A DNA stretch of 64,000 nt, taken from contig JAGTXO010000006.1 in NCBI GenBank assembly GCA_019448385.1, positions 806,001-870,000 of the forward strand. The letters are read 5' to 3'. Positions 2,324 to 64,000 of this stretch are shown in pieces. Source of the stretch: Diacronema lutheri (lineage: Eukaryota; Haptophyta; Pavlovophyceae; Pavlovales; Pavlovaceae). The position numbers and the translations under genes were made by a program. The notes under the pieces were generated by a model, which saw only the letters and a list, made by a program, of their open reading frames with translations, had not been told where the DNA came from and searched no databases. Position 1 is the first letter of the stretch; each line of letters begins with the position of its first letter.

Positions 2324-2356
<33 letters not shown>

Positions 2357-7180: not shown

Positions 7181-7199
7181 CGCCGCCGCCGCCGCCGCC

Positions 7200-9749: not shown

Positions 9750-9828
9750 GGCGCGCGCGACGTCGCCCAGCCAGAGCAGCCCGGGGCGGGGCGAGTCCGG
9801 CTGCGCGGAGGTCCGGCTCGAGCGGGCG

Positions 9829-10198
9829 GGCGCCATGCTCTGAGCCGCCGCCGCTTTTCAAAAGGGTGTAGGGTGTAGGGTGTAGGATGCAAAACAAGCC
9901 CTCCCCACATTTGGGCCCGACGTCATTCCTTCTTTCGAAGCCGTGACGTTACTCACGTACGAGTACTTTTACTTAGTGTAGGATGTATCTATTCTCTAAG
10001 TATTTACATAGTGTATGGTGTAGGATAAGTACGGTTATGAAAGTCCCATAGGGGGAGAAGGAATGACGCTGTGACGAAAGAAGGAATGACGTCGGGCCCA
10101 GATGTGGGGAGGGCTTGTTTTGCATCCTACACCCTACACCCTACACCCTTTTGAAAAGCGGCGGCGGCGCGGAGCATGGCGGCTCAGAGCATGGCGCC
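9829..10198. mobile_element. MITE with long terminal inverted repeats (about 105 bp)
   Basis: The left arm from 9829 and the right arm ending at 10198 are inverted copies. Both carry GCCGCTTTTCAAAAG, three GGGTGTA-type units, then GATGCAAAACAAGCC and CATT(C)TGGGCCCGACGTC, with one base mismatch in the inner 90 bp. A 12-bp insertion in the right arm separates an outer 21-bp matching block. The roughly 130-bp core is AT-rich compared with the surroundings. No ORF for a transposase. I found no convincing target-site duplication. Confidence 0.8.
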
Positions 10199-42979: not shown

Positions 42980-43454
42980 CCTGGCGGAGTGGTTGCTTGT
43001 TACGACCTTTAAAACATTACAAATAATTGTAGGACGGTGTGCATTGGGCGTATAGATGGTCAAGCCAAATCCGATCAGGGGCACGATCGCGCCCCGAGTG
43101 CAGCGCGGGCCGTTCGGAAGGACGTCCTTGTGAGGGAGCTCTTCGCGTTTGGCGAGCGGGGGAGCACGACGCGCAGCGTTGCTGCGGCGGCGTGCGGGCG
43201 GCGAGCAGCGGTCGGGCTGCTCGCGACGAGGCCGGAGCAGACGGCGCCGTGGCCGCCGGCGCAGGTGACGCGCGCCGACGAGCCGTAGCGAGCGTCCGTG
43301 ATCCGCACGGCGGTTGGAGCGGGCCGGCTGGTGCGGCGCGCTCGGCCACGGGTGGCGGCGTGCACGGTCGTGCCGCGCGCGGCACGCGTCGCCAGCCGCG
43401 CGCGACCTGGGCAGAGCCCGCAAAGCGTCGACCGCTGCGCGGCTCGGCCGTGCG
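42980..43454. other. Gap 3' of the Fanzor gene; possible guide-RNA locus
   Basis: No protein gene seen. Contains the AT-richest bit nearby (TTTAAAACATTACAAATAAT, about 43009-43028). In TnpB/Fanzor systems the guide RNA is made from DNA at or overlapping an end of the nuclease gene, often the 3' end, so this gap and the last part of the ORF are the first place to look. Nothing in the sequence proves an RNA. Confidence 0.25.
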
Positions 43455-46400
43455 TCAACGCCGGCCGCGCTTCGGCCCGCGCGCGCTGCCGCCGCCGGCA
43501 CTGGCGCTGGCAGCTCCGCGGGCGGGGGTGCGGGCGCGAGAGCCGCCGCCGCCACCGCCGCCGCGCCCGCCGCCGTCGTCGCCACCGCCGTCGCCGCCGC
43601 CGCCTCCCCCGCCGTCATCGTCGTCGTCGCCGCCGCCGCCTCCGTCGCCGTCGCCGTCACCGTCGCCCTCGCCGCCGCCGCCGTCGCCGCTGCCATCGTC
43701 GTCGTCGTCGTCGTCGCCCTCGTCGTCGCCCTCGTCGTCGCCGTCGCACTCGTCGTCGCAGTCGTCGCCCTCGCCGTGCACCATGCGCTCCTCACGCTCC
43801 CACACCTCGCCGCGCGCCCACCAGGCGAGCACGAGGGCAAAGCGCTCAGGCGTCGACGTGGTGTCGCGCCCGGCCGCGTGCGCCGCCATGTCGTGCACGT
43901 CGTAGAAGATGTTGCGCGCGGCGTTGTAGTCGCGGTGCACGGGCTTCTTGCCGCCGTTGCACGCCGGGCAGATGACGAGCGCGTGCACCGTGCGCGTGCC
44001 GCCCTTTGCCACGGGCAGGCGCGGGTTCTGCGCGAGCTCCGCGCCGCAGCGCTGCAGCCTGCCGCCCTTGGCGAGCCGCGGCATCGAGCAGTGCATCGAC
44101 GTGTACGGCTCGGGCACGAAGACGGCCGCGACGCCGCGCCGCCGCAGCTCGCGCAGCAGCCCCACCTGGAAGGCGGGCGGCGCGCCCTTGGGCTGCGCGC
44201 CCTTGTGGTCGCGCAGCCACTTGCCCACGCACACGAGCAGCCGGTCGCGCGTCACGCCGTCGACACAGTGCGCCGCGATGAGCGCCTCGGCGACGCGCGC
44301 CGCGTTGGACCGCCCGCCGCTGTCGCGCCGCCAGCGCTCCTTCCGGCGCGCCGGCGCGTCGTACACGTGCTCGGCGGCGCGCTCGCGCACCCGCGCGCTC
44401 TCGCGGTGGAAGGCGTGGAACTCGCCCTCGCCGAGCACCTTGGCGCTGTGCGCCTCGCCAAGCCGCGCCTCGTCCGCCTCCACGCTGAACTCCTCGCCGC
44501 GCCCGTCCTTGCGCACGCGCCGCCGCGCCGCGTTGGTCTTGGCCGTCTCGCGCGCAAAGCCCGCGGCGCGCGCGCGCGCGCGCTGCGTGAACTGCCGCCA
44601 GACGGCCGCCCGCCCGACGTGCGCAGAGTAGGTGGTGATGTTGCCCATGTTCGGGTCGGCCGCGACGACGACCGCCGCCTCGACGTCGATCGCCCGCCGC
44701 AGCTCGGAGCCGAGCGCGACGGCGATGCGCCCGTCCGGCCGGCGCCAGCGGTGCAGGACGCCCGAGCCGCCGGCCGGCGCCTGCGCCTTCGGCACGAGGA
44801 CGGTCCCGACGGCGTGCACGGCGACGCCATCTGTCACCACCGACTTGACGGGCTGCCGGCCCGGGAGCGGCACGCGCGGCAGCGGCGCGAGGCCAACCCA
44901 CGAGCGCCGCGCGTGCCACGGCAGATCGGCCGGCGGCCGCTCGCGCCCGGCGTAGTCGAAGACGCGGTTGGAGATGTCGAAGCGCGTCGCAAAGACCGCG
45001 TACCTGACGCGCACGTCCGACATCGGCGGGGTGTTGCCGTTTGTGCCTGTCCACTTGATCGGCTCGCCATCGTGGTCGCGCAGGTCCAGCGCCTTGAGCC
45101 GCGCGCGCAGCTCCTTGCGCTCGTCGTCCGAAAGCGTCACCCAGATGGCGCTCGCGGCGAGGCGCACGTTGCGCGGCACCTGCGCGCAGCGCGCGGCGCG
45201 CGAGCGCGCGGGCGCGTGACCAACCTGGCCGCGGGGCGGCGCGCACGGCGGCGGCGCGCGCGCTTGGGCGCTCGGCGGCGGCAGCGGCAGCCGCGCCTCG
45301 CGCGCACATTGTGCGTGCGCAGTGGCGCCACATTGTACCGCGGCGGCCGTCCGGTCAGCTGCGTGTGGATGTGCGCGAGCCGGCAGAGCAGCGCCTGCCC
45401 CTCGGCCACGTGCTGCAGGTTGCGGATCTGCACGAGGAAGTAGCGCGTCGTGTGCCGGTCGTAGTTCCACCTTTTCGTGGGCGTGCACTTGTAGTCGATC
45501 TTGTGGAGGACCATGTCGGGCAGGTGGCGGTCGAGCGCGGCGGGGCAGCCGACGCGCGCGCCCTCCACGTCGCCGCGCAGCAGCCGCTCGCACAGCTCGC
45601 GCACGCGCGCGTTTCGCTGCATCTCGGGCAGCGCGACGAGCGCCTCGTCGCGCTCGACTGCCGCGCGGACGACGTCGCGGAGCAGCCCGTTCACGACGCG
45701 CGATGGATGCATCAGGCACGCGGTGGACACCTGCGTCGCCTCCGCCTCGAGGATCTCCGTGAGGCCCACCGCGCAGACGGGCTGGACGCCCTCGGCCATC
45801 TCGCCGACGGCGCGCGCCGTCGCCGCCTTGGTCTGCGCGGCGGCTTGCTCGGCGGGCTTGCCTCGGGGCGCTGCACCGTACGTGCTCTCGTCCTTGTGCC
45901 AGCCGATGGCCGAGAAGATCGCACGGACGGTTCCCTTGTCCATCGTGGTCGACGTGTGCACGCTGGTCGACGGGCCGCCCGACGCCGCGCCGACGGCCTG
46001 CGCGCTCGCCACCGCAGCCTCGTCGCGCACCACCTTGTTGATGACGCGGTACGCCTGTGTCGTGAGCCTGTGCACGGCCGCCGCGATGCGCCGCAGCTCC
46101 TTCCGCGCACCGGGCTGCGCCGTCACCGCCTGCGGCCCCGCGTTGAGCGTCGAGCGCTTGACCACGAAGCCCGGGAGCACGCTGCCGCGCGTGCGCGCCG
46201 TCGCGCCGCCGGCGGCGCGCGCGCTCGGCGCAGCGGGCTCGTCCACGCGCGCGCGCTCGACGCCGCGCGCGCGGGGAACGCTCGGCGCGCGCGCGCCCGC
46301 GGCGTCGCGCGCGCTCGCGGCGGCACCCGCCGCGGCGCGCTTGCCCGCGGCGCCCGACTCGCCGTGCGCGCGAAGCGGCGCCGACGCCAATGCCGACGCC

Positions 46401-49400
46401 GCGCCCGCGCCGCCGCTGCCGCTGCCCGATCCGCCCGCGCGCCGCTTCTGCTCGTCGCGCGTCTTGCGGAACTGGGCGACGAGGTCGCTGCTCACGTTGG
46501 CCTCAGGCTCCCACGTGTCGGCGCTCTCGTCGTAGCCCCGCCACCTGATCCGGAACTGGAACGTCACCTTCTTGCCCGCCTTGCGGCGCTCGTCGACGAC
46601 CGCCTCGACCTCGTACGTGCGCGCCTCCTCGTCGACGCTCGCGCCCGCCGCGCTCGCGCCCGTGTCCGGCCACCCAGCGACCGTGCCGCCCAGCCTCTCG
46701 GCGGCCGCGCGCAGCTGCCGCTCGCGCTGGGCGGCCGCGGCGCCTCGCGCGACCAGCGCGGGCAGCATGCCCGCGCCGCCCGCGAGGCCGTGCGCGCCGA
46801 CGCTGGCGGTCATCAGCGCGTCGAGGCACGCGAACGTTGCGAGCGCACACGCGCCATCGTCGCCGCCGCGCGGCTGCGAGCGCACGACGGGCGATGGCCG
46901 CGGCTCCCCCTCGGCCGCGAGCAGCGGCCAGATCGCACTGGCCAGCGCGACGGCATGCGCGCCGACCGCGACGGCCACGTCCGCGTCGAGCGGCGCAAAG
47001 TCGTAGCGCACGAGCGCGGCCGGGCGCGAGTCGTCCGTCGGCCGGTCGGCGACGAGCAGCCCGACCGGGCGCGGCGGCTCGCCGGACGGCGCGGCGACGG
47101 GCACGCAGAGGAGCACGACGAGCAGGCGCGGCGTGCCGCCGAGCAGCGCGCGCGCGGCATCCGCCCCGTCGGCTCCGCCGCGCGCGGCCGCGGCGAGCAG
47201 CTCGGCCGCGCGCGTCGGGCCCAGCGCCGTGCGCGCGTCCTTGCGCGCGCGTGCGCGCGCCGTGTACGCGGCGCAGGCGTCGTCGAGCACCGCCGCGCTG
47301 GGCGCGGTGCCAGTCGTCGCCCACGCGCGCAGCGCGTCGCGCACCCGCGTGACGATCGCCTGGTCGACCGCCGCCTCGCCGGCAGCGTGCGCCGGCGCGC
47401 ACGCCGGCGGTGCGGCGGCAGGCGCGAGCGCGGGCGCGCCGTCGGCGCCGTCAACGCCGACGGCGCCGTCGGCGCGCCGCCACGCGAGCTTCGCCTCGAT
47501 CTGCTGCCGGACGGCGTGGCAGTGCCGGTCGATGCCGCGCGCGTCGTCGAGCGCGGCCAGCGCGTCCTCAGCGGCGGGACGGCCGCTCGCGTCCGCGACG
47601 GCCTGCAGGCAGAGCAGCGCGGCCGCACGCGCGTTGCACGCGCTCTGCGGCTCGGGCGCGAGCGCGAGCTCGAGCTCGAGCGGCGACGCGCCTCGCGCCG
47701 CGGCGATCGCGTCCATCAGCACGTCCAACCGCTGCACCAGCGCCCTGTGCGCGTCGCGCGGCGCGCCCGTCGACGGCGCGCGCGAGCGCGTCGCCACGAG
47801 CCCGAGCGCGCGCGCCGGCGCGCCCGCCGGCGTGTGCAGCACGAGCAGCGCCGCGCCCGCCAAGCTCGCGTTGCGCGTGACGAGCGCGAAGATGCGCGTC
47901 GCCTCGTGCGCGCCCACCGACGCCCAGATCGCAGCGCGATCGGCGTCCGTCTGCGCGTCGCACAGGTCGCGCACGTCGTCCGGCGCGAGCAGCGCGCCGC
48001 CGCCGGCGGAGCGCGCGACGATCGCCCGCGCCTCCGCCACGAAGACGGCCTGCGGCAGGTCGGCGTGGCGCGCGTCGACGATGGCGCGCGTCGCGTGCAC
48101 GCCGAGCTCCACGCCGCGGTAGAAGGCGCGCGCGTTGGCCGCGCGCGCGTGCGCCGGCCGTCCGTCCGCGTTGCGCCTCGCGCGCGCCTGCTTGCTCGTG
48201 CGCGCGAGGCCGTCGCGTGGCGGTGGCGGCAGCGTGGCGAGGAAGCGCGCGGCGGGCGGCGGCGCGCGCACGCCGCGCTGCCGCCGTGCGATGGCCGCGA
48301 GCCGCCGGCCCGCCGCGCTGCCGCCCGCGCCGACGTGCTGCCGGCGGCCGAGCGCCGCCGGTGGCGGCGGCGGCGGCGGCGCGGCGGCGGGCGGCGGCGC
48401 GACGGCGGGCGGCGGCGCGGCGGCGGGCGGCGGCGCGGCGGTGGGCGGCGGCGCGGCGGCGGGCGGCAGCGGCGGCGGCGCGGCGGCGACGGCAGCACCA
48501 GTCGGCTTGTCCGCCCACGCACCCGAGACGCTGTCCCAGGCCTTGCCCGGTGGCGCGCGCCCACGCGGCCGCGGGTGGCGGGCTCGAGCGGCGGGGGGCG
48601 GGCGGCCGGCGCGCCAGTCGAAGACAGGTGCAACCGTGGCGGCAGGCGCCGAGTGCCGCGCGTCGGTCACAGAGCGCGTGGTGCGCGCGGCGACCGTGGC
48701 ACGCATGGCGGGCGGGCGGTGAGCAGCGCCCGCCGGCGCGCCGGCGGGCGCGGCAGCCGGCGCGCCGGCGGGCGCGGCCGCCTCGAGCCCGGCGGAGGCG
48801 CCGCGCTTGCGCTTGCGCGTGCCGCCGCGCGTGCGCCTGCGCGCGCGCCCGCCGCGCGCCCGTTCGGCCTGCGCGTCGCCAGCCGCGTCGCCGGCCGCGT
48901 CGCCGCGCCGCACGTAGACGACCGCGAACGCCTCCTCGCCGGTCCCGTCGACGCCGCCGCGCGCGCGGCGCAGGACCGACCGCCACTGCAGCCGCCGCGC
49001 GCGGCCGGGCTCGCACGCAAACCAGCGCCCACCGCGCCTGACGACGGCCACAAAGTCGTCGTCGCGCCGCCCGCGCCGGCGCGTGCGCAGCAGCACGCAC
49101 TGCACGTCGAGCCAGCCCTCGTGCCAGTCGGCCGTGCTGGGGGCGACGCGAATCGACTGCGGGAGCTCGACGCCAAAGCCGGCGAGGCGCACGATGTGCG
49201 CGACGATGACGCTCGAAATGGCGGGGGCGCTCGTCGGGTCGCCCGCTGCAGCGAGCACCGCCCCGCCCCAGTGCTCACGCGTGACGCAATCCGCGTCCTC
49301 GACGTGCACGTGCGCCACGCTCGCGCCGAGCTGGTGCAGCAACGCGCAGATGTCGGCGTCGACCGTCCTCTCCTCCTCGGCCGCCTCGGCCGTGCCGCGG

Positions 49401-52400
49401 GCGGCGGCGTCGCCTGCCGGCTGCCCGAGGTACGCGATCGCCCGCTCGACGGCCGCGCGCTCCGCACGCGCTGCGCTGTCGATCGCCGCATTGCCGACGG
49501 GCGCGCGCAGCGCCGCGATCGCGTCTTGCAACGCCGTCGCGTCGCCCGTCGCCGCCGCCGCCGTCACCGCCGCCGCGCTCGCGGTGCCGTGCGCGACGGC
49601 GTGCAGCGCGGCGGCGCGCGCGGCGGGGATGCGCCCGTCCAGCGCGAGCACGAGCGGCGGCCCGGCCGGCGTCTGCTGCCGCCGGTGCCGCCGGCTCGCA
49701 GCCGGGTGGTCGGCGCGCGCGCGCTCGAGCCGCGCGCGCCGCTCGACGACGCGCGCCCAGAAGGCCTGCACCCTCGGCTGCGCGAATGCAAGCCAGCCGG
49801 CGCCGCGCGTCACGACGTGCACGACGATCCGGTCCTCGTGCCTGAGGTACTGCACGTAGAGCGCTTTGCGCACGCCGAGGACGTGCATGCCGAGCTGCAG
49901 CTGATCGCGGTGCGGCTGCGGCGGCCCGTCCTCGTGCGCCGTGGCGCCCGCCTTGGTGAGCGTCTTCACCTCGACGAGGACCTGCTCGTTGTCTTCGGGG
50001 AGGATGGCGAGCCCGTCCGGCGAGAAGGCGAACGGCGCGCTCTTGTCGTGCGGGTCCGCACGCACCATCGGCAGGTTGCACACGACGGTGATGCCGTACG
50101 CGGCCGCCAGCTTGCGCAGCGCGACGGCCTCGCCGAGGATGCCCGCGGTCGTCGCCTTGGTCCGCACATCGCGCCGCCGCCGGTGCACGTACTCGTCGGT
50201 GAGCGTCTCGTGCGCGACGCCGGCGTTGTCGTTCACGACGTCGCCAACCTTGCTGCCCGTGACCTCCTCCCATCGCTCGTCGTGCCAGCGCGGGCTGCGC
50301 TGCGCGGGCGCGCCCGCGCCGACGGCGTCGAGCACGCGGCGCAGCGCTGTGCCGTCGGGCGCAGCAGGCACGCGCGCGCGGTCCTGGGCCTCGCGAGCGT
50401 CGAGGACGCAGCCCGTAGTGGAATCTTGGGGTAGGTCGAGCTTGCTCGCCTCGCCGTAGCGGCTCTCCAGCTGGCGCGGTGCGTCGGCAGGGCCGCCGTC
50501 CGTGCGCGCACCCGACGCGCCCGCCAGTGCACGGGGCGCAGCGTCCGAGGCGCCCGCCGCGCCCGCGCCGCCGCCAATCGCGCCAGCGCACGCGCGCGCC
50601 GCGACCTGCGGACGGCCAGCCGCAGGGACCTCGTCCGCTCGGCCGGCCGCTGCGTCGGCCGTCCGCTTGGCCACCTCGCGCACGTCTCCGAGCGCGAGCG
50701 TGGCTGGCGCCGTCGAGCTCCCGTGGCGTTTGTTCCAAAACTCGAGCAGCCCGCCAAGGAAGGGCGTGCCCGTCGGGCGGTCCTCGGGCACCTCCGCCAG
50801 GATCGCGTCGACGCGCAGCGCGGCCGCCACATCGCAAAACGCGCGCGCGGCGCGCGCCATCCGCTCGGCGCGCGCGCCGCCGTCGTCCGCCGCGCGGCGG
50901 ATGGCGTGGCTCACGTGCGCGACGCGGAGCGAGACGACGGCGTGCGCCGGCGCGTCGGCGCCCGTGCCGAGCGTGTGCCGCCGGATGGCCAGCTGCCCAT
51001 CGCCCATGCGCGGCGGGAGCGACGCGCACGCCGCGACGGTCGTCTTGCCGGCCGCGCTGTCGCACAGCCAGCTCGCCTCGCCGCCGCCCGCAAACTCAAA
51101 GGTCGCGAAGCCCTCGCGGCCGAAAAGCGCGACGAAGTGGTCGAGCACCGCCTTGTTGATCGCGCGCGCCGCCGGCCGCGTCGATGCGCCGCGGGCAGCG
51201 CCACCCGCCGCGCCGCGCGCATCGCTGCACGTCGCAGGGCAGGTGCAGCCGGACGCGCGCACGCCGTCCGACCGCGTCCGCGGCAGCTCGAGCTCGCGCA
51301 CCTTGGGGCAGAACCAGAGCGGGTTGGACGCCTCGAGGCACAGCACGACGAGCCGCCCGTCCGTGCCGGCCAGCGCGCGCGCGTCGCGCAGCAGCTCGAC
51401 GGCGAGCTCGGACGTCGCCGCGTGCACCGCCGGCTCGCCCGTCGCGCGGTCGGGCGGGAAGAGGCCGCCGCCGACGAGCGGGCTGGGGCAGCGGCCGAGC
51501 ATCACGAGCAGCGGCGGCGGCGGCGTCTGCGGCGCCTGCTGCCCGACCGCAGCCGCCGTCAGCCCGGCCAGGTCGGAGCTCGTGCGGAGGGCCTTGAGCG
51601 CGACGCGCGAGCCGGTGCCCGCCTGCTCGGAAAACGTGGCGAGCATGGCGCACGTGCTCGCCCTCGCGCCGCACTGCCAGCTGACGCGCGCGAGGAGGCC
51701 TTCCAGCGTGTCGTTTTCGCGCGGCCGCGTGACCGCGTCGAGCGCCGCCGAGTCGAGCTGGAGGCTGCCGGGCGTGACGCACAGCACCGCCTCGTGGTAG
51801 GCGCGCAGCAGCTCCCTCGGCAGCTGCTCGGCGGGCGTCGCCGCCTGCCCGCCCACCCACCGTGCATCGTGGCCGCCGTCGCCCGCGCCCGCGAGCCGCA
51901 CCGCCGGCCCGCCCGTGATCGCCGAGGTCGGTGGCGTGCCGAGCGCGTCGACGAGCGCGCGCACGGGCGCGACACGCCTGCGCGCAGCGTCCGCGCCGAC
52001 GGCGAGCGCGGCGATCCGAGCGCCCTCCCGTGCGCGCTCCCTCGCGTCGTCCCGCGCGGCCGCCGGCGCGGCGCCCGGCCGCGCGCCGGGCGGCACCGCG
52101 CACGCCGCCGCGACGACCTCCGCGCGCGCGCCGGCGGCGTCGGGCGCGTGCAGCTGCGCGAGCGCGCCAGAGAGCGCGGCGGCCGAGCGGTAGCGGCCGT
52201 GCGCCGCGACGAGCGCGTAGAGCACGCGCAGCGCGGCCACGCCCGCCTGGTCGGGCGCGTCGTCAGCGATGCGCTCGACCTCCCACGTGCGCGTGGGCGG
52301 CGGGCTGCCGTCGGCCGGGTCCGGACGCAGCGCCCACGCGCGCTCGACGATCGCGTTGAACACGCCGTGCGCGGCGCCCTCGTCAAACTCGGCGGCGCCC

Positions 52401-53996
52401 GCCGCGTGCGCGCACCACCCGTGCACGCGCGACGTGGGCGCGTCCACGGCGCGCTGCACGACGAGCACCGCCGGCCGGTCGACGCAGCCGAGGCTCACCG
52501 CCGCGTGCTTGCCCTCGAGCAGCGCCGCCGCCGCAGCCTCGACCAAGGCGTCACCAGGCGCGTCGCCGACGACGACGGCACAGCCGTCGCCGTACTCGGC
52601 CTGCATCGCGGCGACGCACGACGCGACAAAGTCGCCGCCCGCGGCCGCCGCGTGTCGCGCCGCCAGCATCCGGCGCGCGATGGCAAGCCAGACGTACTCG
52701 GCCGGCGCGCGCGCGGCGCGCGCGCGAGGCGCGCCGGCCGCGCCGCGTGCGCCAGCGCGTGCGCCTCCAGCGGCCGCAACGGCCGAGGCGGCTGGAGCGG
52801 CGGTGAGCGTGCGCCGCGCGCGCTTCGCCGGCCGCGTGATGGGCGATGCACCCGCCGTCGCCCCGCCCGCAGCAGCCGGTGCGGCCGCCACAGCGCCCGC
52901 CGCAACGCCACTCGTCACGACGCCCGTGGCGGGCGGCGCGGCGGCGGACGCGGCCGCCTCGACGGGCGTCGCGCAACTACCGCCAGCGGTCGCGGACGCG
53001 CCCGGCGACGCGTCGGCGAGGAGGTGGCGCAGCACGCCGCGCGCGAGCGCGACTCGCACGGCGAGCGTCAGCGCGCGCAGGCGGTCGGAAGGCGAGGCGT
53101 CGCGCTCGGCGTCGGCGGACGTGGCGGCAGCAGGCGAGGCGGCGGGCGGCGCGGCGGCGGGCTGGGCGGCCGCCGGCGCAACCTCGTCGGCCTTGGCCAG
53201 CCAGACGAGCCCGGCGACTGCGAGCACGACGCTGTACGCGCCGACATCGTCACCCGCAACGCGCGCCAGCCGGGCGTGGGCGTCGGCCTCGGACACGGCG
53301 ACGTGGAAGAGCACGTCGTCGCGGGCAGCTTGCTCGGCAAACTGACGCAGCTGCTTGGCCATCGTCACGCCGGCGACGCACGCCTCGCCCGCCTCTGCCT
53401 CGACCTGCTCGTCCTGGCCGATGGCGGACGCGCCGGCCTCGGCGCCAGCGTCGAGTGTCCGGCGGCGCTCGAGGGCGAAGCCACGCACACAGACGCGCTG
53501 GAGGCCGCCGAGCGCGCCCGCCTTCTCGTGCAGCGCGCACGACAGCTCGACCACCGAGTCCACGCGCCTCGCGGCGGCGCCCCCCCGCTCGCCGCGCGTG
53601 GCCGCGCGCACGACGAACACCGTGAATTGCGCGCGCTTCGCCGCGCGCGCCGACGCGCACGCGTGCTTCAGGAGCCGGCAAAGCGCGGGCCTTTGCGCCG
53701 CTGCGCCCCGCGTGCACAGCAGCAGTTGGCCGCGCTCGTCGCCCAGCTCCTGCTCGATGGCGGCCTCGAGCGCGTCGTCCGTCAAATCGCCGTGCTCCGT
53801 CGAGGCGAGCGCGCGCGCAGCCGCGAGCGCCAGCTCGCCTGCGCCCGCGCGCCGCCGGCGGCGCGCACCGGCGGGCGCGTGCGGCGCCGACGCGTGTGAC
53901 GACGCCGCCGCGTCCGCGCGCGCACACGCGGCGCGCAACGCCTCACGCGCCGAGGCGGCCGCGCGCGCCCTGGGCGCGAGCTTCAAGAACGTGCGC

Positions 53997-54041
<45 letters not shown>

Positions 54042-57000
54042 TCGCCCGCGTCGCCGGCCGGCGGCGGCGGTGGCGGCGGTGACGGCGCGGCCACGGCGGC
54101 GGCAGCAGCGGCGGCGGCGGCGGTGGCGGCGGCGGCGGCGCCCAGCGCGGGCGGCGGCGGCGTGGCGGCGGCGGTGGCGGCGGCGGTGACGCCAGCGGCG
54201 GCCTTGGCGCCGCGCGTCTGCGGCGGCGTTTCGGCGCGATCGGGGCTGCCCCCGCCACGCACCGCGCTCGTGACCGCGCAGACGCCGCCCGGCGCACGAT
54301 CGCTGGCCGCGCCGGTCAGCGCGACGCGGAGGCGCTCGCCGACAGCGTACATGTCCGCCACGCTGAACGTGCGCGGCGCGGACGAGCAGCCCGCCGCGGC
54401 GAGCGCGTCGTTGAGCGCGCCCACTATCGCGAGGCCGCACGTCGCGCCACGCTGCGCCGCCTCGTTGAGCAGCAGCGCGCGGCGCACGCGCGAAATGTCG
54501 AGACCCGCCGCGTGCAGCGTGGCAGTTATCGCCTTGGCGAGCATGAGCGCCTGCCTGCAGGGCGACGCGAGCGTGTCGACGAGCACCGCGTCGTAGCGAT
54601 GCTCGCCCGCGCGCGCGACGCGCACAAGGCGCAACGCGGTGAAATGGCCGGAGGCGAGCTGCGCGCCGTCGTCACCGCCCGCGCCGCCGCGCTCGTCCGA
54701 CGGGCTCCACACGCCGATGACAGCCTGCGTTGTCGCCTCGCTGCGCAGGCGGTGCAGCAGCGCGGCGCGCTCGGCGTCGTCCTGAAACACCGCGGGTTGC
54801 GCGGCGAGCGGCACGTGGCAGACATGCCCGCCGCCGGCCTGCCCGTGCACGCGCAGCACGACCTCGCAGCACGCGTCGACGGTTGAGGCGAGCATGTCGC
54901 CGCTGGCGATGCGCTCCACCTCTGCCTGCGGGAGGCCGGCGCTCGCGGCGGCGGCGGCCAGCCGGCGCGCAGCCGCGTCGCCCGCCCACGCAAGCAGCGC
55001 CGAGTTGGCGGGTTGGAGGGGAAGCTCAAGGGCGGCTGGTTCGGTGGCGGTAGCCTCGTTGGCAACGGGCACGTTGGCGGTGCGCGCGTTGGCGGCGGGC
55101 GCGGCGGCGATGGCTGGTGGGGCGGAAGACGCGCCCGCGGCGGCGGGCGCGGACGCGGCAGCGGCAGCGGCTAGTGGCGCGGGGAAAACGCCGTCGGTGG
55201 CAGGCGCGGAGGCGAATGCAGGAGCAACTAGTGGGGCGGGAAAATCGGCGGCAGGCGCGAAGGCGGATGCAGGAGCGGCTAGTGCGGCGGGGAAAACACC
55301 GTCGGCGGCAGGCGCGAAGGCGGATGCAGGAGCGCCCAGCGGGGCGCAGAAAACACCGCCGGCGGCAGGCGCGAAGGCGACAGCAGCAGTGGCCAGTGGA
55401 GCGGAGGCGCAGGGCCACGCGCGCGCCAGCCGTGCAAGCCCAAGCCGCGCGCGAGCGACGCACGCGCCGATGGCCGAGGCGGCGGCGCAGGCCACGACGT
55501 GGCCTGGCACCGGTGTGGCCAGCCGCTCGCGGGTGTGCACGTCGAGCCGCGCCCCACGCCAAGAGCGGCGGCGCGCTGAACGGAGGCGCGCGACCCCGAT
55601 CGATCCGCCCGCGCACGCGCGCGCCGGCTCAGTGTGGCCAACGCGCGCCGCTATGCGAGGCGCGCGCGCGATAACGGCGGCTGTCGGCCGTGGCGTGCGC
55701 GAGGCGGCGCCGCGGCGACGGGCGCGGCACACGAGCCGCTCGGGCGCGCCGCCGCCGCGCGGCACGATGTCGAGCAGCACGGTCACGCCGCGCGCGCGCG
55801 CGACCGCCGTGCACGCGAGCCGCACGGGCAGCGGCGGCCCGTCCGGGCGCGCGAGCGCCGCCACCTCGGCGTCGGTGAGGCTGTGCAGCTCGCGGCGCGC
55901 GCGCGCGAACGCGGCGATGTCCGCGCGCAGCTCCGCGTCCGTGCCGAGCGCAACGCGCGCGTGCACGGGGAGCGACGCGCGCAGCGCGTGGAGCACGCCG
56001 CCGCGCGCGCCGCGCGGCGCCGGCGCGCGCTCGCGCTCAGCGCGCGCGGCGCGCGTGAGCTCGCGCACCGCGCGCGCTAGATTGCGCCGCGCGGCCGCGA
56101 CGGGAGGGCTAGGTGCGCGCGCGCGCCGGTTGTAGCGCGGCCGCGCCGAGTCGAGGGGCGGCGGACGCGGTGCGTACGCCGCGGCGCGGCCCGCGCGCCA
56201 AAAGGCCGGCGGCGGGCGCAGCTCCGTCGCGTCGACCGCGGCCGCGAGCGCGCCGAGCGCGGCGTCGCTGTCGCCCGCCGCGTCGGCCGCGTCGACGAGC
56301 ACGAAGAGCGCGCCGAGCGCGCGCGACGCGGCCGCCTGCGCGGCGGTGGGGCGGGCGCAGGCAGCGACGCATGCGGCCGCCATGCCGCGCGCCGCGGCGA
56401 ACGCCGGTGACGTGACGGCCGCGCCGATGGCAACGGCGGCGGCGGCGACGGTCGAGGCGGCAGCGCCGGCGATGGAGGTGGCAGCGGCGGCGGCGCTTGC
56501 CATCGCGCGGCGCGCGAGACGCGAGGCGCCACCGACCGCCGCCGCCGCAGCGCGCGCTGCGCGCGCGCCGGTGGCGCGCATCGTCGCCGCGCCAGGCGCC
56601 GCCGCGCCGACGCCGCCGGCGCCCGCGCCGTCGCCGCTCTCGGCCGTGCAGGGCTCCGATGGCGAACCCGGCGTGCGCTGGCGCGTGATGCGCGCGCCGA
56701 GGCGCGCGCTCCGCGCCGCGCGGCCGGCGACGTCGAGGAAGCGCCGTGCGCGCGCCGCGCGCAGGCCACGCGCGCGCGGCGGCGCAGCGACAGGCGCCGA
56801 GCGCCGCGGCGCGCACGCCGGCGCGTCGCTGTCGGGTTGCGCAGCGCGCGCGCGGGAACTCGGCGCGGCGTGTGCGGGCGGCGGGCGCGCGCCCGCGCGG
56901 CGCAGAGGCGCGAGGCGCCGGCCGCAGACGAGGCGTGTGCGCAACCAGGACGGCGAGGGCCGCAGGGCGCCGTCGACGTCGCGCATCGGCGGGCCGCGAG

Positions 57001-58561
57001 CCCGCCGCGCAGCCGTGCGGCGCGCGCGAGGCGCTCGGCGGCGCGCGCGCCGCACGGCGCGCGCGGCGGCGCGCACGCCAGCGACGGCTGCGGCCACGCC
57101 GCGCGCCAACACGGCCGCGGCGTGCGCCATCGCACCGAGCACGGCGCGTGGCGCGCCGAGCAAGCGCAGCAAGCGCGACGCCGTCGCGCGCGCCGGCGCA
57201 CTGTGTGCAGGGGCCTCGCCAGCGCCAGCACCGACGCCGCCATCGCCGCAGCCGCAGGTGGCGTCGCCGCCGCCGCAGGCGTCGCGACGGACGCCGCCGC
57301 CGCCGAAACAATCGCCGCACACGTCGCCGCCGACGTTGCCACCCCAGCCGCCGTTGCGTGCGCAGGTGGCTGCGGCGCGTGCGTGCGGGAGGCGTGCCGT
57401 GCGGCGCGCATCACACGGGCTGCGCGACGCGAGCGACGCCGCCGGGGTCCCCGCTGCGCCAGGCGCGCCGTGCGTGCCAGCCTCGCCGGCCTCGCCGGCG
57501 CGCGGTCGCGCGCTCGCCTCGACGTGGCCGCCTCCGCCGCCATCGCCGCCGTCGAACCGGGCGGCGGAGGGCTGCCGCTCGAACCGCTCGTCGGCGTCGG
57601 CCGCCACCGCCGCCTCGCGCTCCGCCGCCGCGGCGGCCGCCGTACGCGCGTGGCGGAGCGCGCGGCCGCCGTCCGCTGCGCGGCGTGGCGGCGCGGGCGC
57701 CGCCTTCGGCGCGCGCGGCCCCTCGGCGCGCTCGCGGAGCACGGCGAGCGGCGTGCCCGTGGCGACGCTCGTGCAGACGCGCCGCAAGGCGGCGCTTACG
57801 CACGCGTGGACGACGCGCGCCGTCCGCTTGTCGGCGGCGCGCGCGGCGCGGCGCGCGGCCTTGGCGGCGGCCTTTTTGGCGCGCCTCTGCTCCGCCTGCT
57901 CCGACAGCGCGCGCGCCTGGCGCTCGGCTGCGAGCGCGTCCTCGGGCGAAACGGTCGGCCTCGGCGGCCGCGCGCGCGCGCTGCGACGCTGCGCGCTGCG
58001 GCGGTCGGACGGCGGCTGCCGCGGCGGCGAGGACGGCGAGCGCGAGCTCGGCGTGGGCGACCAATCGCCGCTGACGGTTGCGAGCGGCGCAAACGGGTTG
58101 TCGTCCCCGCGCCCCGCGGCGTGCGACAGTGCACGCGGCGTCGGGCGCCGGCCGACCGCTGGCGGGCCCCACTCGGACGGCGGCTCCGAGGGCGAGCGCG
58201 CCGTCGGCGCCGCGCGTTGCGCGGCCGGCGGCGCCTCCCGGTCCAGCGCCGCCTGCTCTCTCGCCGCGGCCTGCTCGTCACCCTCCGGCACGCCACGCGG
58301 CGCGAGCACCGCGGTGGCGCAGCGCGTCGCGTTGAGCAACGCCGCCTCCATCTGCCGCACGCTGGCCTTGGCGCACGCCACACCCTGTCTCGCCCGGCGC
58401 AGCGCCTCGTGCGCGCGGCGCACATCCGCGTCGGCATCTTCGCGCATGCCAAAGTGCGCCTGTTGCAGCCGCAGGTCCGCAGGGCGCCCCTGCGCGCGAG
58501 GGGCACGGGCGCGGCGGCGCGCGGGTGACGGAGCTGGCGCGCCGTTCTGCGCTGCGCGCAC
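43455..58561 (-). CDS. Giant ORF ending in a complete Fanzor nuclease
   Basis: Exon 43455-45179 joins exon 45308-(up to)58561 across intron 45180-45307 (AAT|GTGCGC ... GCGCAG|GTG, phase 0; THN/VPRNVRLAASAIWV). The upstream frame is stop-free for 13.3 kb. The last about 700 residues are a Fanzor: N-terminal HTTRYFLV signature, RuvC-I ADPNMGNI (about 44,650), a VGKW...KG block, PEPYTSMHC with a Glu, paired cysteines of a zinc ribbon, and RuvC-III HRDYNAARNI (about 43,920). An acidic Gly/Asp tail ends at 43455. Fanzors are RNA-guided DNA nucleases in eukaryotic mobile elements. Upstream in frame lie a chromodomain, USP-like, YqaJ-like and Ulp1-like domains and long Ala/Arg-rich spacers. Whether all form one polyprotein-sized product is unproven; an in-frame Met near 46771 could start a separate chromo-Fanzor. 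Confidence 0.65.
46441..46619 (-). other. Chromodomain upstream of Fanzor
   Basis: Reads YEVEAVVDERRKAGKK, FQFRIRWRGYDESADTWEPE, then a helix LVAQFRKTRDEQKRR. The Y-V-E, W-x-G-Y and W-E-P positions form the aromatic cage and fold of a chromodomain, which binds methylated histone tails. It sits in the same frame about 110 residues before the Fanzor N-terminus (FVVKRSTLN). Confidence 0.88.
48355..48480. repeat. GC-only tandem repeat encoding Pro/Ala units
   Basis: About six imperfect 18-bp units of GGCGGCGCGGCGGCGGGC type, read on the minus strand as PPPAAAP blocks inside the giant ORF. Confidence 0.8.
48890..49345 (-). other. USP C-terminal-half-like domain
   Basis: Segment HQLGASVAHVHVEDADC, DDDFVAVVRRGGRWFACEPG and EEAFAVVYVRRG resembles the C-terminal His-box half of ubiquitin proteases (H-x-x-x-x-x-x-W-x-x-x-D then A-x-x-L-x-Y). 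The usual His is not conserved at DDFVAVV, so it may be inactive. It is flanked by a Pro/Ala 18-bp repeat (48355-48480). Confidence 0.35.
49826..50305 (-). other. YqaJ/lambda-exonuclease-type nuclease domain
   Basis: Motifs in order: QRSPRWHDERWEEVTGSKVG, TAGILGEAVALRKLAAAYG, FSPDGLAILPEDNEQVLVEV then KTLT, and HRDQLQLGMHVLGVRKALYV. The G-E-x-x-x, SPDGL and VEVKT motifs plus Q-x-Q-x-GM are those of YqaJ-like viral/phage recombinases, PD-(D/E)XK exonucleases that trim dsDNA for strand annealing. The active Asp, Glu and Lys are all present. Confidence 0.85.
53985..54180. repeat. GCG/GGC triplet repeat
   Basis: Near-pure GGC triplets encoding polyalanine on the minus strand, between the Ulp1-like domain and the next segment of the giant ORF. 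Likely a linker of variable length. Confidence 0.9.
54330..54920 (-). other. Ulp1/SENP-type (C48) protease domain in the giant ORF
   Basis: GHFTALRLVRV (His), AVLVDTLASP (Asp) and AAQRGATCGLAIVGALNDAL (Gln and Cys) give the H-D-Q-C order of C48 SUMO proteases. All four residues are present, so it may be active, unlike the degenerate protease-fold segments elsewhere in these ORFs. Confidence 0.72.
55160..55405. repeat. Minisatellite of about 60 bp units
   Basis: Four imperfect copies of a GGCGGCAGGCGCGAAGGCGG-containing unit, encoding repeats of the form APAADGVFPAPLAAPASAF on the minus strand. Confidence 0.85.
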
Positions 58562-61500
58562 GCCAATCGACGGGCGCGCGCGCGGCGGGGCGCGCGCGCG
58601 CGCACGCGCGCGCGCTGCCTACCCAGCCGCCGGCCGGCTCGCGCGAGCGCGCCAGCTGCTCCGCCGCCTCGGCGTCGAGCACGCGCTGCTGCGCCTCCTC
58701 CTCGCCCAGTGCAGCGAGGTGCAGCCGGCGGGCTGCCTTGCGGCAGTTGCCCTCCGCCTTGCCCACGGCCTTGCGCGCCGCGTCGACGGGGTCGTCGTTG
58801 GCTCTGTCGCGCCTGCGCTTGCCCTTGTCGGCGGGCGGCGGCTCGGCGCGCTGCGGCGCGCCGAGCGCGTCGTCGGCTCCGCGCGCGGCCGCCCGCGGGC
58901 GGCGGGCCCCAAAGAGCGCACCGGTCGCCGTGCGCGCCGCGCAAGCAACGACCAGCGCTGACATGCCGGCGAAGACCGCACCGCCCAGCGCCACGGTTGC
59001 CACGATGCGCAGCGTCCCGTGCGCAGGCCGCGCTGCCTCCGCCGCTTTGGCGGCCTCGCGCGCGCGCGCATCGGCGGCTCTCATCTCGTGCAGCAGCCCG
59101 GCCGCGCCGCTCGCGCCGTCGCGGCCGCGCGCGAGCTCGCACAGCACCGCCGCCGCGTGCCGCGTGGGCTCGCGCGCGAGCAGCTGCGCGCCGCCGTCGG
59201 GGCGCAGCTTCTCAACGAACTCGACAAACGTCGCGTCGCGCCAGAGGGACATGCAGAAGGCCCTGTGCACCACCCCCTCTTGCTCGCGCATCCGCCGTGC
59301 CGCCCGCCTGCCGTCGCGCGCGTGCGCGTGCGCGGCCGCGTCGAATCCAGCGACGCCGCGCTGCGCGTCGCGCACGGCCGACGACGGCGCCGCCGCGCTG
59401 CCCGCCAAGGGCGCCGCAGCGGCGACGCGCGCGTGCGGAGCGACGGGATCGCCGGCGGCCGGCGGCTCGGCGCGCTGCGGCGTGCCGTTTGCTCCGCGCG
59501 CGGCCGTCCCGGGGGAGATGGCCGCGATGGCGCCGCCAGCCGCGCCGTGCGCCAGCCACGCGCATAGGCTGCCGACGAGCTCGCCGAGACCCCCGACGGT
59601 CGCCGCGGCGGCGAGTGCGCCGGGCTTGCCGGCCGACAGCGGCTCGCGAGCGTCGTCGTCGCAGCCGCCGGCACCCGTCTTGGCGAGTGCGTCGCGCTCG
59701 CCCGCGACGCCCGCCACGACCGCCGCCCCTCCGTCGTCCGCCGCGCCGGCCGCGCGCGCGGCCGGGCGCAGAGGAGGCGTGCCGGTGCAGCCGTCGCCGC
59801 TCGTCTTCGCCGTTTCCTCCACCTTGATCGCTTCGTCGCCACCTGCGCCATCTCCGACGCCGGGGCCCTTGGTCACGCTTGCCGCCATGCGCGCCGTGCC
59901 CGCCGGCCAGCCCGCCGACTGCTCGAGCGCGGCGGCGAGCGGCGCGACGCGCGCCGACTCGGGCGCGCTCTCGTCATCGGGCTCGGGCGCGTTGTGCAGG
60001 CGCGCGAGCGCGCGCTCGACGGCCGCGGCGCCACTGCCGGGGGCGCGGCTCGCCGCGCGCACCGCGCGCCGCCAGGCCGGCGCGAACATGAGCGCCGACT
60101 CGAGCGCCGCGAGCGCGCGCGCCTCGCGCGCGTCGCTCGCGCCGAGGCGCGGCGGCACGCGCGCGGCGCCGCGCGGCGCGGTGCCTCGGAAGCGTGGGCT
60201 CAGCGTGTAGGCGAGGTGCTGCGGCACGCCGCGCGCCTCCGCGCGCGCGCGTCCGTCCTCGACCTCGCGCCGCGCCTTCGCGATCGCCGGCGTGGCGCGC
60301 GCGAGCCAGTCGGGGTCGGCGGGCAGGTGGATCACGACGAGAATCGGCGCCCAGTCCAGCCGCGGGTTCTTGTGACGGTCGGGCACGACCCACACGAGCA
60401 GCACCGTGCCCTCCGCGCCGCACGCCGCCTCGTAGATCCTGGGCTGCGAGCGCCAATCGGGCCTGACGCGCAGCGCCCGCGCGTGGTCGATGGCGGCGGC
60501 GCGGTCGCCATTGAAGTGAACCGTCGTCACCTCGCCGTTGACGGACCGGCCGGACCGCCAGCAGAACACCGCGTCCGCCGACCCGCCGGCGATGGCCGCG
60601 AGCGATTCGGGCGCGGCGAGCCGCGGCAAGCCCTCGAAGGCGGCAAAGTCCTCGTGCGCATTGTACACGCCGCCCCAGCCGTCGTGCGCGTACGCGCGCG
60701 CGGCCGCTCGTACCGCGCGCGGCTGGTTCTCCACGCCCGACGTCATGTGCCATGTCGTCCCCGCGAAGCCGGGCTCGCCCAGCTCGGCCCGCACGACGTT
60801 ACCGTACCCCGCGCCCTGCGTCGGGGCGGCGAGGTGGTGCATGCCCGCGCCGGTCACGCCCTCCGTGCGCTGCCGCGTGACGATCGTGCCCGTCGCGTGC
60901 GCGAAAAGCGTGTCGACCACGGCGGGCGCGCGCCCGCTGTTCGCCCGTAGCCGCGCCCTGCCCGCTTTTAGCTGCTCGGGGTCCTTGGCGTCGTACACGC
61001 GCGCGTCCGCGTCGCCCTCATCAGGCGCAGTGTAGACGCAGCGGCGTTCGAGCGGCGCCGAGCGACCGCCGTCCGCGGCCGCCGGCGAGGTTGGCGCCGC
61101 GCCCGCCGCCACCGCGCTCGTCGCCGCCGTGCCCGTCGCCACCGCCGCAGCCGCCGCGCCCGCGAGGTCGTCGTCCCCGTCCTCCGCGCCCTCCCCGTCG
61201 TCAGCGGTGGTGGCGTCGCCATCGTCCCCGTCGCCCTCGCCCCCGCTGAGGCTGCTGAATGGTCGGGGCCCCCACGCCGAGGCGGCGCGCCGCTGCGGCG
61301 CACGCGGCGGTGGCGCTCGCGACGGCGGCCTTGGCGCCGCCGCGCCGCGCGGCCTGGCCGCCGTCGACAGCGCGCGGCCTGCAGCGCCCGTGAGCGCGTC
61401 GAGCGCGGCCGTGCGTGCGATGCGGTCGTCGGGCGCGCGCAGCGCCGCCTCGACGGCCTGCAGCAGCCCGTCGGGCGCGGATCCGCCGACACTGGCATCG

Positions 61501-62297
61501 CACGCCTCGGCGAGCCGCGCGGCCTCGGCGAGCCGCGCGGCCTCGCGGGTGAACGGGCCGAAGCGCCTGGCGCGGTCGCCGAGCAGAGCGCCGATGGCGG
61601 CGCGGAGCGTGCGCGCGCGGGTCTCCTCGTACGCGGCCGTCGTGAGGCGCGCGAGGCGCGCGTCCAAAGCCTTCTTGATGTCGACAAGGACATTCGCGCG
61701 GCGGCCGTAGAGCGTCGATGCGCTCGCCACGACCTCGGCCGCGACTGTTGCCGCGGCGAAGCAACACGCGGCCCCACTCTGCGGGGGCGCCTTGAAGGCA
61801 TCGATGGGCGGCGCTGTTCTGCCGATGCGCTGCGCAAGCTTCTTGATGAGCACGCCGGCCGCCGTGGCGTACGCCGATTCGCCGTTGCCCAAGGTGCGCG
61901 AATCGGCGAGCAGGGCGAGCGCGGCGCCGGGCGGCGCGCCGCGCTGCGCGGGCGGCGCGAGGAGCAGGTACGCCGCCGTCCAGTGCGCGAGGCCGCTGGA
62001 CGCGCGGAGGCAGAGCGGTAGCACGACCACGAGCACCTGCCCAAACCGGTCCGCATCCGCGCATGCTTTGCGCAGGTTGCGCAGCGCCACCTTGAGCGCA
62101 TGCTGCGAGCACCCCGTGTCGCCCACCCTAACCCTGCTCGTGCCGAAATCCGCGTAACGCAGCAGGGCGATGAGGCAAGTGGATGGGACCACGTGGGGGT
62201 GGGTATCTCCCGGCGACAGAATGGTGCTGAGGGCCAGCGAGAAACTGTCCGAGCCGCCCCGCCCGCCGGGCAAAGCGTCCTTCACGGAGTCCTCCAT
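58278..62297 (-). CDS. Ulp1-type (C48) protease with nuclease segment and membrane helix
   Basis: ORF of up to 1,339 residues starting MEDSVKDALPGG. Residues 1-190 form a C48 protease: HWTAAYLLL (His105), LLADSRTLG (Asp132), PPQSGAACCF (Gln173, Cys178/179). After a Ser/Asp/Ala-rich linker comes the second copy of the PD-(D/E)XK-like segment (59889-60935). Beyond it, starting at an in-frame ATG at the repeat edge (MAASVTKGPGVGD, 59888), is a further about 440 residues with a charged helix (REQEGVVHRAFCMSLWRDAT), a single transmembrane helix (IVATVALGGAVFAGMSALVV) and a coiled coil (RKAVGKAEGNCRKAARRLHL). The C-terminal limit is unclear because the frame overlaps the start of the giant ORF; the last 90 residues are Arg-rich and may be noncoding. 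C48 enzymes process or remove SUMO-like modifiers. Confidence 0.65.
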   Translation of the reverse strand: MEDSVKDALPGGRGGSDSFSLALSTILSPGDTHPHVVPSTCLIALLRYADFGTSRVRVGDTGCSQHALKVALRNLRKACADADRFGQVLVVVLPLCLRASSGLAHWTAAYLLLAPPAQRGAPPGAALALLADSRTLGNGESAYATAAGVLIKKLAQRIGRTAPPIDAFKAPPQSGAACCFAAATVAAEVVASASTLYGRRANVLVDIKKALDARLARLTTAAYEETRARTLRAAIGALLGDRARRFGPFTREAARLAEAARLAEACDASVGGSAPDGLLQAVEAALRAPDDRIARTAALDALTGAAGRALSTAARPRGAAAPRPPSRAPPPRAPQRRAASAWGPRPFSSLSGGEGDGDDGDATTADDGEGAEDGDDDLAGAAAAAVATGTAATSAVAAGAAPTSPAAADGGRSAPLERRCVYTAPDEGDADARVYDAKDPEQLKAGRARLRANSGRAPAVVDTLFAHATGTIVTRQRTEGVTGAGMHHLAAPTQGAGYGNVVRAELGEPGFAGTTWHMTSGVENQPRAVRAAARAYAHDGWGGVYNAHEDFAAFEGLPRLAAPESLAAIAGGSADAVFCWRSGRSVNGEVTTVHFNGDRAAAIDHARALRVRPDWRSQPRIYEAACGAEGTVLLVWVVPDRHKNPRLDWAPILVVIHLPADPDWLARATPAIAKARREVEDGRARAEARGVPQHLAYTLSPRFRGTAPRGAARVPPRLGASDAREARALAALESALMFAPAWRRAVRAASRAPGSGAAAVERALARLHNAPEPDDESAPESARVAPLAAALEQSAGWPAGTARMAASVTKGPGVGDGAGGDEAIKVEETAKTSGDGCTGTPPLRPAARAAGAADDGGAAVVAGVAGERDALAKTGAGGCDDDAREPLSAGKPGALAAAATVGGLGELVGSLCAWLAHGAAGGAIAAISPGTAARGANGTPQRAEPPAAGDPVAPHARVAAAAPLAGSAAAPSSAVRDAQRGVAGFDAAAHAHARDGRRAARRMREQEGVVHRAFCMSLWRDATFVEFVEKLRPDGGAQLLAREPTRHAAAVLCELARGRDGASGAAGLLHEMRAADARAREAAKAAEAARPAHGTLRIVATVALGGAVFAGMSALVVACAARTATGALFGARRPRAAARGADDALGAPQRAEPPPADKGKRRRDRANDDPVDAARKAVGKAEGNCRKAARRLHLAALGEEEAQQRVLDAEAAEQLARSREPAGGWVGSARACARARPAARAPVDWRARSAERRASSVTRAPPRPCPSRAGAPCGPAAATGALWHARRCRRGCAPRARGAAPGETGCGVRQGQRAADGGGVAQRDALRHRGARAAWRAGG
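59889..60935 (-). repeat. 1,047-bp direct repeat, copy 2
   Basis: Same orientation and frame as 3814-4860. The nuclease-like motif reads GEVTTVHF here, so the motif lysine of copy 1 is threonine. The sequence otherwise stays open, with many silent or conservative differences. Confidence 0.9.
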
Positions 62298-63689: not shown

Positions 63690-64000
63690 GGCTTCGAGGT
63701 ACAGAGCTGGGCAACAGTGCCGCTCGTCACCGATGAGGCGGCCAAGCTCGCTATCCTTGCTGCCCTCGGCTCCGCCAAACAGCCGGGCGACCCAACGGTT
63801 CGTGATCGCCTGGCCGCCAGGTGCGAACCGCGCCCGTGCAAGCGCTTCGCCGCATTCTCCGCCCCGCTGCGGACGTCCGCCTGCCGGCCGCGAACACGGC
63901 CGGTGCGCGTTGCCGCCTGGCCCAACACGAAAACGCGCCCGCCCCCGAGGCCGCAGGTCCTACCTGCCCAAGCGCAGCCCAACGGCACGCAGACAGCCCG
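63690..64000 (+). CDS. Possible exon cut by right edge
   Basis: After an AG acceptor-like CATCCAG the plus frame reads GFEVQSWATVPLVTDEAAKL and continues ILAALGSAKQPGDPTVRDRL with normal protein composition, unlike the Arg-rich frames around it; codons GCT, CTT and GTT are frequent compared with neighbouring genes. It then becomes Arg/Pro-rich towards the edge. No family recognised; the phase and the upstream exon are unknown. It may be chance. Confidence 0.22.

Follow-up and report, generated by a model that had tools for sequence, protein, structure and literature searches.

A chromodomain and a Fanzor1-like nuclease share one open frame in a giant element of Diacronema lutheri

Can a chromodomain and an RNA-guided nuclease be parts of one and the same gene? 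This question is raised by a 64,000-bp window of the haptophyte Diacronema lutheri (contig JAGTXO010000006.1, positions 806,001 to 870,000; coordinates below are those of the window, the whole stretch analysed), in which a first-pass annotation made from the sequence alone had joined a chromodomain in frame to a Fanzor nuclease. We confirm here that a chromodomain and a Fanzor1-like nuclease are encoded in one open, codon-periodic frame of a D. lutheri element (Table 1). That annotation let the frame begin at 46634; instead it extends, stop to stop, up to 58618, so that what had been seen was just the C-terminal end of a giant frame, which belongs to a transposable element of high copy number. 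Together with exon 2 the frame amounts to 5,011 residues from stop to stop, with no stop in 13.3 kb, and the main gene product is predicted to reach about 5,000 residues or more and to end in a chromodomain that a flexible linker connects to a Fanzor1-like nuclease.

Since the DNA is approximately 75-83% GC and long open frames are therefore cheap, we tested the fusion frame by stop counts and codon signal. Between 45332 and 58618 the fusion phase contains no stop codon, while the other sense phases contain 34 and 18 and the antisense phases 11, 18 and 45 (one antisense open frame measures 1778 residues). The difference in GC content between codon positions 3 and 2, taken in 29 sliding steps between 47000 and 45320, favoured the fusion phase 28 times; the steps cover the chromodomain, the linker and the Fanzor N-terminus, the exception was the last one, within the intron, and the signal was weak in the linker (0.08-0.10). 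With 300-base steps, it could be traced in the fusion phase between 58.6 and 45.6 kb, weakly in places and with the 55.5 kb bin scoring higher in another phase; between 62.4 and 58.8 kb a coding-like signal appeared in a different phase. This upstream stretch may be an additional exon of the gene, which would make the giant frame longer. One exon, uninterrupted in frame, holds both the chromodomain and the conserved Fanzor N-terminus, and the distance from the chromodomain to exon 2 was constant within 9 bases in 60 of 60 pairs with both parts listed (input, at least 76 Fanzor and at least 146 chromodomain places, 16 of the Fanzor places being without a partner among the chromodomain places listed). 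Of the 146 listed chromodomain places, 102 lie within open frames of at least 4,000 residues and 68 within frames of 4,480-4,625. The shared frame proposed earlier is thus borne out by the absence of stops in phase, the codon periodicity and the constant spacing.

The chromodomain, previously located at 46441-46619, was recovered as a PF00385 match above the cut-off at 46615-46463 of the minus strand. Solved relatives among its best matches were CDYL (E 8.9e-10) and HP1 (1e-7), as well as CDY, MPP8 and Clr4. The Y, W and Y of the aromatic cage, whose positions were set by alignment to CDYL/CDY, were kept in all 23 chromodomain sequences read, which had been picked by the letters YEVEA. In sequence and cage the domain resembles those of HP1, CDYL and MPP8, and on this basis it is predicted to be of the methyl-lysine-reader type. 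A recent capture from another chromodomain gene of the same genome was discarded, since the four other D. lutheri chromodomains compared were at most 39% identical to it.

As for the nuclease, the residues formerly read as Fanzor motifs (DPNMGN, the Glu of PEPYTSMHC, HRDYNAARNI and the zinc ribbon) are present, and the zinc ribbon scores above the PF07282 cut-off. When the window Fanzor was aligned with five further Fanzor-like sequences of D. lutheri, three of which belong to one family, all six had D175 in the DPN motif, a glycine (G319) where the canonical Glu would stand, and E357; the last Asp was taken from the window sequence. A repositioned Glu is described for Fanzors (PMC10711439). 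A profile of these six sequences (A1), headed by the window Fanzor and including other Fanzor-like families, matched SpuFz1 best among PDB chains (8gkh, E 3.5e-10) and a second Fanzor1 (9cf0) at 7.8e-4. Exon 2 alone yielded Cas12f1 at 0.2, and the NCBIfam TnpB model matched the window Fanzor at 0.023 (14 bits, cut-off 100). With the SpuFz1-type Fanzor1 of Spizellomyces punctatus (8gkh), the window protein shares a RuvC with repositioned Glu, the zinc ribbon and a eukaryotic transposable element as carrier; it differs by the in-frame chromodomain and the giant upstream frame, and by an N-terminal WED/REC that was unrecognised by sequence.

A profile search of protein databases, with the best 8000 candidates scored, returned nine relatives (P0001 to P0009), and two other searches recovered P0001 alone, an exon-2 copy of 99% identity. 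The homologues P0003-P0008, located in other public contigs and several of them partial, are 43-50% identical by alignment (39-50% by BLASTP), which suggests that the nuclease represents a long-lived, long-conserved protein family. No chromodomain was found in the frames of P0002-P0009 (174-674 residues; eight of the nine relatives lie on contigs shorter than 3 kb), where one could sit further upstream. Viral contigs held no pattern match to exon 2, and none of the stretches that they yielded with the helicase frame (11) or with a further alignment, A6 (27), was confirmed; likewise, the 41 stretches found in genome contigs with exon 2 included none confirmed as a relative, and phages had no match to exon 2 or P0003.

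The single intron of the first-pass annotation is likewise supported, with a GT-AG junction as in the NCBI gene model of a related copy and a drop of the coding signal at that point. In this model, KFE25_011467 (P0009), which stands for a D. lutheri hypothetical protein and is 86% identical within a short segment, ...GRPPRYNVAPLRTHN is followed directly by VPRNVRL..., and the same join applied to the window copy places the intron at 45307-45180; an alternative donor between AAT and GTG 24 nt earlier, at 45331, is also possible. According to the genome paper, the D. lutheri annotation was made with BRAKER2 and RNA-seq (PMC8379373). The called frames of P0003-P0008 begin from two residues before to five after the acceptor, which fits the intron and may partly mirror start-codon choice.

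Sequence identity among copies of the element breaks off sharply at 43050 and 69264, and paired ends gave sizes of about 31.0-31.1, 21.6, 26.3, 29.4 and 32.2 kb for other copies. The element ends are TATATA(G/C)GG...CCATCTATAC, with C or G preceding the 5' end in 12 of 12. No consistent target-site duplication (TSD) was seen in 12 flank pairs, the GCCC on both sides of the window copy being taken as chance, and an ungapped comparison of the ends, matching at 15 of 60 positions, disclosed no terminal inverted repeat (TIR); a DDE transposon with TIR and TSD was rejected, neither feature being present. In the genome searched (43,492,796 bases in 103 contigs; 73.25% GC for D. lutheri NIVA-4/92 in PMC8379373), the family occupies at least 162 places, partial copies included, this being the union of at least 146 chromodomain places, assigned to the window family by near-identical scores, and at least 76 Fanzor places. 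Among the matches listed, 75 of 76 scored exon-2 copies carry no stop, and eight copies, compared with that of the window over 3.6 kb, share 99.5-99.8% identity with it. Such near-identical, stop-free copies point to recent activity of the element, and they offer little for measuring selection. Copies with a frameshift or stop include L056 and L027. In the older copy L069 (C49:212800-216100), an in-frame deletion has removed the chromodomain together with the N-terminal Fanzor region, so that the upstream frame continues into the RuvC part. Copies L027 and L054 diverge from the window more in the 45180-49032 region than in Fanzor exon 2, a pattern for which gene conversion may be responsible or, in L027, the position at the end of a contig. 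Subtelomeric insertion, as the positions at contig ends might suggest, was discarded as an assembly effect, since numerous contigs stop at or close to the element termini, on either side. The genome paper gives 22.9% repeats, the annotated ones being mostly long terminal repeat (LTR) elements and long interspersed nuclear elements, and in its main text words beginning with 'transpos' are absent (PMC8379373).

The window contains a second giant element, of a family that we call S1, with a helicase region, a USP-like region (19.1 bits, under the Pfam cut-off of 23.9) and a sister Fanzor without chromodomain. Its DNA is 96.2% identical to a 31-kb copy of the chromodomain element in contig C36 over 10223-7636 and 95.5% over 7600-4859 (helicase and USP region), and 95.9% identical to the chromodomain element of the window over 4861-3814, after which the two diverge. 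Overall, the DNA that S1 shares with 5' parts of the chromodomain element is 94-98% identical and, as both have this 5' backbone and then differ, the elements look mosaic. One frame of 2,007 residues leads into the sister Fanzor, which is 34-36% identical to that of the chromodomain element. For the Fanzor N-terminal region tblastn gave E 5e-13 (35.5% over 152 residues), and the alignment of the two starts right after the linker of the chromodomain element, where S1 has no chromodomain. Because the sister Fanzor lacks it, the chromodomain would most simply be a gain in the window family, on a backbone shared with an S1 family of different 3' half; a chromodomain ancestral to the window Fanzor was rejected, S1 having none between its upstream frame and its Fanzor. 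The sister Fanzor in L065 aligns straight through the position of the window intron and seems to carry an intron elsewhere. Among the best 101 of 396 candidates, S1 had at least 25 members (at least 84% identity, pieces merged), S2 at least 6 (60-62%) and S3 at least 3 (50-51%), so that by these lower bounds the chromodomain family, with its at least 162, is the most abundant of the four counted. The 701 bases of S3 that were read show, by eye, a low-complexity linker and no chromodomain, and a more distant family (L066), with a frame of 1,019 residues, had no chromodomain match.

The C36 copy exceeds that of the window by approximately 5 kb that include a PIF1 helicase. This is split over two overlapping frames (PF05970, E 3.7e-14 and 1.8e-24; Pif1_2B, 6.2e-13), which implies an intron or a frameshift, and its best PDB match is Helraiser (4e-25), cellular PIF1 scoring 6.2e-6. 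Ahead of the helicase, in the same frame, the C36 copy carries a stretch of unassigned kind (L015:2496-3881) that starts MAAIDLRAFDAALVNCEIVS. A USP-type peptidase (PF00443, 5.8e-8) is encoded upstream in the element. Canonical Helitrons have 5' TC and 3' CTRR ends and insert between A and T. Like Helitrons and Helraiser (7lcc), the element has a PIF1 helicase, closest to that of Helraiser among PDB chains, and neither TIR nor TSD; unlike them, it has no Rep/HUH nuclease that we could find, and its ends are TATATA...CTATAC and not TC...CTRR. A canonical Helitron was therefore rejected and, for want of a Rep nuclease, we did not file the element as a Helitron; Helitron_like_N was found at one place in the genome (C63), outside the element. 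Close parallels are CRe-1, 2 and 3 of Chlamydomonas, Fanzor1-carrying elements of Helitron2 type that have been described as most likely non-autonomous Helitrons inserted after T-rich tetranucleotides. They resemble the D. lutheri element in being algal, in carrying Fanzor1, in lacking a TSD (copies with intact ends), in their precise 3' ends and in their link to Helitron-type replication; in contrast, a chromodomain goes unmentioned in the section on them, and the D. lutheri element has no T-rich flank rule and, in its 31-kb form, carries a helicase (PMC3627910).

Over 19 contigs, divided into 68 interior 250-kb bins, the copies showed no clustering beyond random expectation (variance/mean 0.82), and 4459 of 5000 random placements were at least as uneven as those observed; the test used the listed places of the set of at least 146, which lacks, for example, the copies of C89. 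Hence, if the reader steers insertion, it does so not obviously toward heterochromatic blocks. The 3' end of the window copy lies 70 bp before the ATG (42979, minus strand) of an open frame of at least 340 residues, which is probably a host gene. These unclustered copies and the site near an ATG weigh against heterochromatin-biased insertion. In nine 3' flanks examined, the first 100 bases had 42-66% GC, as compared with 73% for the genome, a composition that would be compatible with promoters. A 217-residue frame starts with its ATG 53 bp beyond the end of copy L005. Close to the 3' terminus, the arms of a hairpin are kept in seven aligned copies and indels fall in its loop.

We believe that the best explanation overall, at a probability of roughly 0.55, is a giant transposable element with a chromodomain-linker-Fanzor1-like C-terminus that combines Helitron-like movement, guided cutting and a chromatin tether. 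Such an element would move in the manner of Helitrons, by a single-strand mechanism that needs a helicase, and with a further nuclease. The Fanzor, loaded with RNA from the 3' end of the element, would cut the empty donor or sister site, and repair would restore the element; retention through guided cutting is a published proposal, both for TnpB and for those Fanzors that lie close to Helitrons (PMC10432273). The chromodomain would hold the nuclease on methylated-lysine nucleosomes, and cutting would then work at, or avoid, a particular chromatin state. More tentatively, and with confidence well short of even, we suggest a natural RNA-guided nuclease with a histone-mark reader, in which capture of the chromodomain tied cutting, and with it retention and spread of the element, to chromatin and accompanied expansion to more than 100 copies, on a backbone that other element families have in common with it. 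The first-pass annotation had proposed a chromatin-targeted Fanzor: its encoding together with a chromodomain is upheld by the shared exon, frame and spacing, the copies unclustered at the 250-kb scale argue against heterochromatin-biased insertion, and targeting by chromatin is putative.

Several results weigh against this explanation. The window copy itself has no helicase region, and a motif scan gave seven HxH-type matches, none with a Tyr motif behind. The Fanzor assignment depends on the profile used: the window Fanzor and its sister alone (A3) found neither Fanzor1 in PDB, the window Fanzor with seven database homologues (A5) found only Cas12f1 (E 0.038) and TnpB (about 0.3), and the 1,019-residue relative L066 alone found SpuFz1 only at 0.55, behind low-complexity matches. 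Structure prediction, a check suggested in the first-pass annotation, was run on exon 2 with AlphaFold2 and gave a poor model (predicted local distance difference test 55.0, predicted template modelling score 0.29) that was left unused. The candidate guide-RNA tail folds no better than shuffled sequences (z -1.13 and -1.46; 26 and 12 of 200 shuffles as good). Finally, the exon-2 core of an approximately 98% identical subfamily (L056-L060) differs from the window by 35 replacement and 20 silent changes, a replacement fraction of 0.64 against 0.72 expected, so that its divergence is close to neutral, and the ratio of replacement to silent rates (dN/dS) against L069 is 0.50 in the Fanzor (250 codons) and 0.73 in the upstream frame (647 codons).

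These points leave room for other explanations. The domains might be encoded together and then parted, be it through splicing within the linker, use of an internal start or cleavage of the giant protein, the Fanzor being an ordinary one and the chromodomain the tail of an upstream protein. The low-complexity linker with its weak coding signal (0.08-0.10), the in-frame ATGs on both sides of the chromodomain (46813 and 46768 upstream, 45943 downstream), the S1 long frame of the same kind that enters a Fanzor without chromodomain, and stretches of the giant frame that look peptidase-like by eye (Pfam gave no match there) would all agree with such a separation. However, frame and phase are continuous, the spacing is constant within 9 bases and the Fanzor N-terminal homology begins just past the linker in the same exon, and we regard it as somewhat unlikely. 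About the same weight can be given to a chromodomain that tethers the whole element, the giant protein or an insertion complex, as supposed for chromoviruses, with the Fanzor as a passenger or retention device. Other Fanzors of the genome (L066, S1) have no chromodomain, the family that has one is the most abundant of the four (at least 162 against at least 25, 6 and 3), and accessory chromodomains in LTR-transposon polyproteins are known (PMC6338049); in contrast to those of chromoviruses and other retroelements, the one described here is joined to a Fanzor-type nuclease and not to an integrase. On the other hand, the copies among the places listed are unclustered, and the contrast in copy number is a single event.

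Less probable than either is a largely defunct family, the outcome of one burst of copies in which Fanzor and chromodomain are no longer under selection. The near-neutral changes of the 98% subfamily and the frameshift or stop in L056 and L027 would be expected in that case, but 75 of the 76 scored exon-2 copies are free of stops, eight copies are 99.5-99.8% identical and dN/dS against the older L069 is 0.50. That the fusion arose by chance from GC-rich sequence, with two frames open side by side that have nothing to do with each other, seems to us highly improbable: long chance frames do occur, as the antisense one of 1778 residues illustrates, but 13.3 kb without a stop contrast with 11-45 stops in each of the five other phases, the codon signal is in phase and both domains have independent family support.

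No chromodomain-Fanzor is described in the literature searched, which included few subscription papers. Each ingredient is known by itself, Fanzors from transposons and from the vicinity of Helitrons, chromodomains from transposon proteins; as far as searched, the fusion of the two is new, and so is the giant frame. The biological role of Fanzors is called unknown in PMC10432273. A Fanzor framed with a chromatin reader at more than 100 places, in apparently recent copies, offers a direct route to ask if its action is chromatin-dependent, and the S1 sister element without chromodomain provides the natural comparison. If our explanation is true, the element would show that chromatin readers and guided nucleases have been combined in nature, a precedent for making such fusions.

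Table 1. Features of the window, in window coordinates
Feature	Position	Strand	Remarks
Window part of the 26,215-bp element copy	43050..64000	-	3' end 43050; 5' end 69264 in the extended sequence (L009 position 5264)
3' non-coding tail, candidate guide-RNA (omega RNA) region	43050..43454	-	
Hairpin GGGGC-loop-GCCCC	43078..43095	-	28 bases from the 3' terminus
Exon 2: Fanzor core, RuvC, zinc ribbon, acidic/Gly tail	43455..45179	-	575 codons including stop
TNB zinc ribbon PF07282	43908..44147	-	E 3.6e-6, 27.5 bits, cut-off 26.3
Catalytic residues	RuvC-I D 44657-44655; alternative E 44111-44109; last D 43931-43929	-	DPNMGN; PEPYTS; HRDYNAARN
Intron GTGCGC...GCGCAG	45180..45307	-	128 bp; NCBI model junction, coding signal lost
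Fanzor N-terminal region	45308..46171	-	Same exon as chromodomain; 28% identity to sister Fanzor (window 472-1248)
Gly/Ala/Arg-rich linker, chromodomain to Fanzor	46172..46462	-	
Chromodomain PF00385	46463..46615	-	Y, W, Y cage; E 2e-12, 47.3 bits, cut-off 25.1
Giant open frame, stop to stop	45308..58618	-	Ends in chromodomain and Fanzor; first in-frame ATG 58447
Weak YqaJ-like nuclease match in giant frame	49877..50287	-	PF09588 E 0.0068, 17.1 bits, under Pfam cut-off 22
Upstream coding stretch	58622..62315	-	Coding periodicity changes phase at about 58.6 kb
Second giant element, S1 family	1..10316	-	Helicase region, USP-like region, sister Fanzor without chromodomain

The genome contains at least two further Fanzor-like families (for example at C11:803083, C1:154701, C71:710021 and C36:901547), one with a frame of 1,019 residues and one of 316. 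Another abundant repeat, with 94 pattern matches per strand, was read in four places (L061-L064), all with the terminus ...GTTGACCCGTCGGAAAGCGTCGTTAGTAT, and the element copies of contigs C4 and C8 directly abut the end of a repeat of this type.

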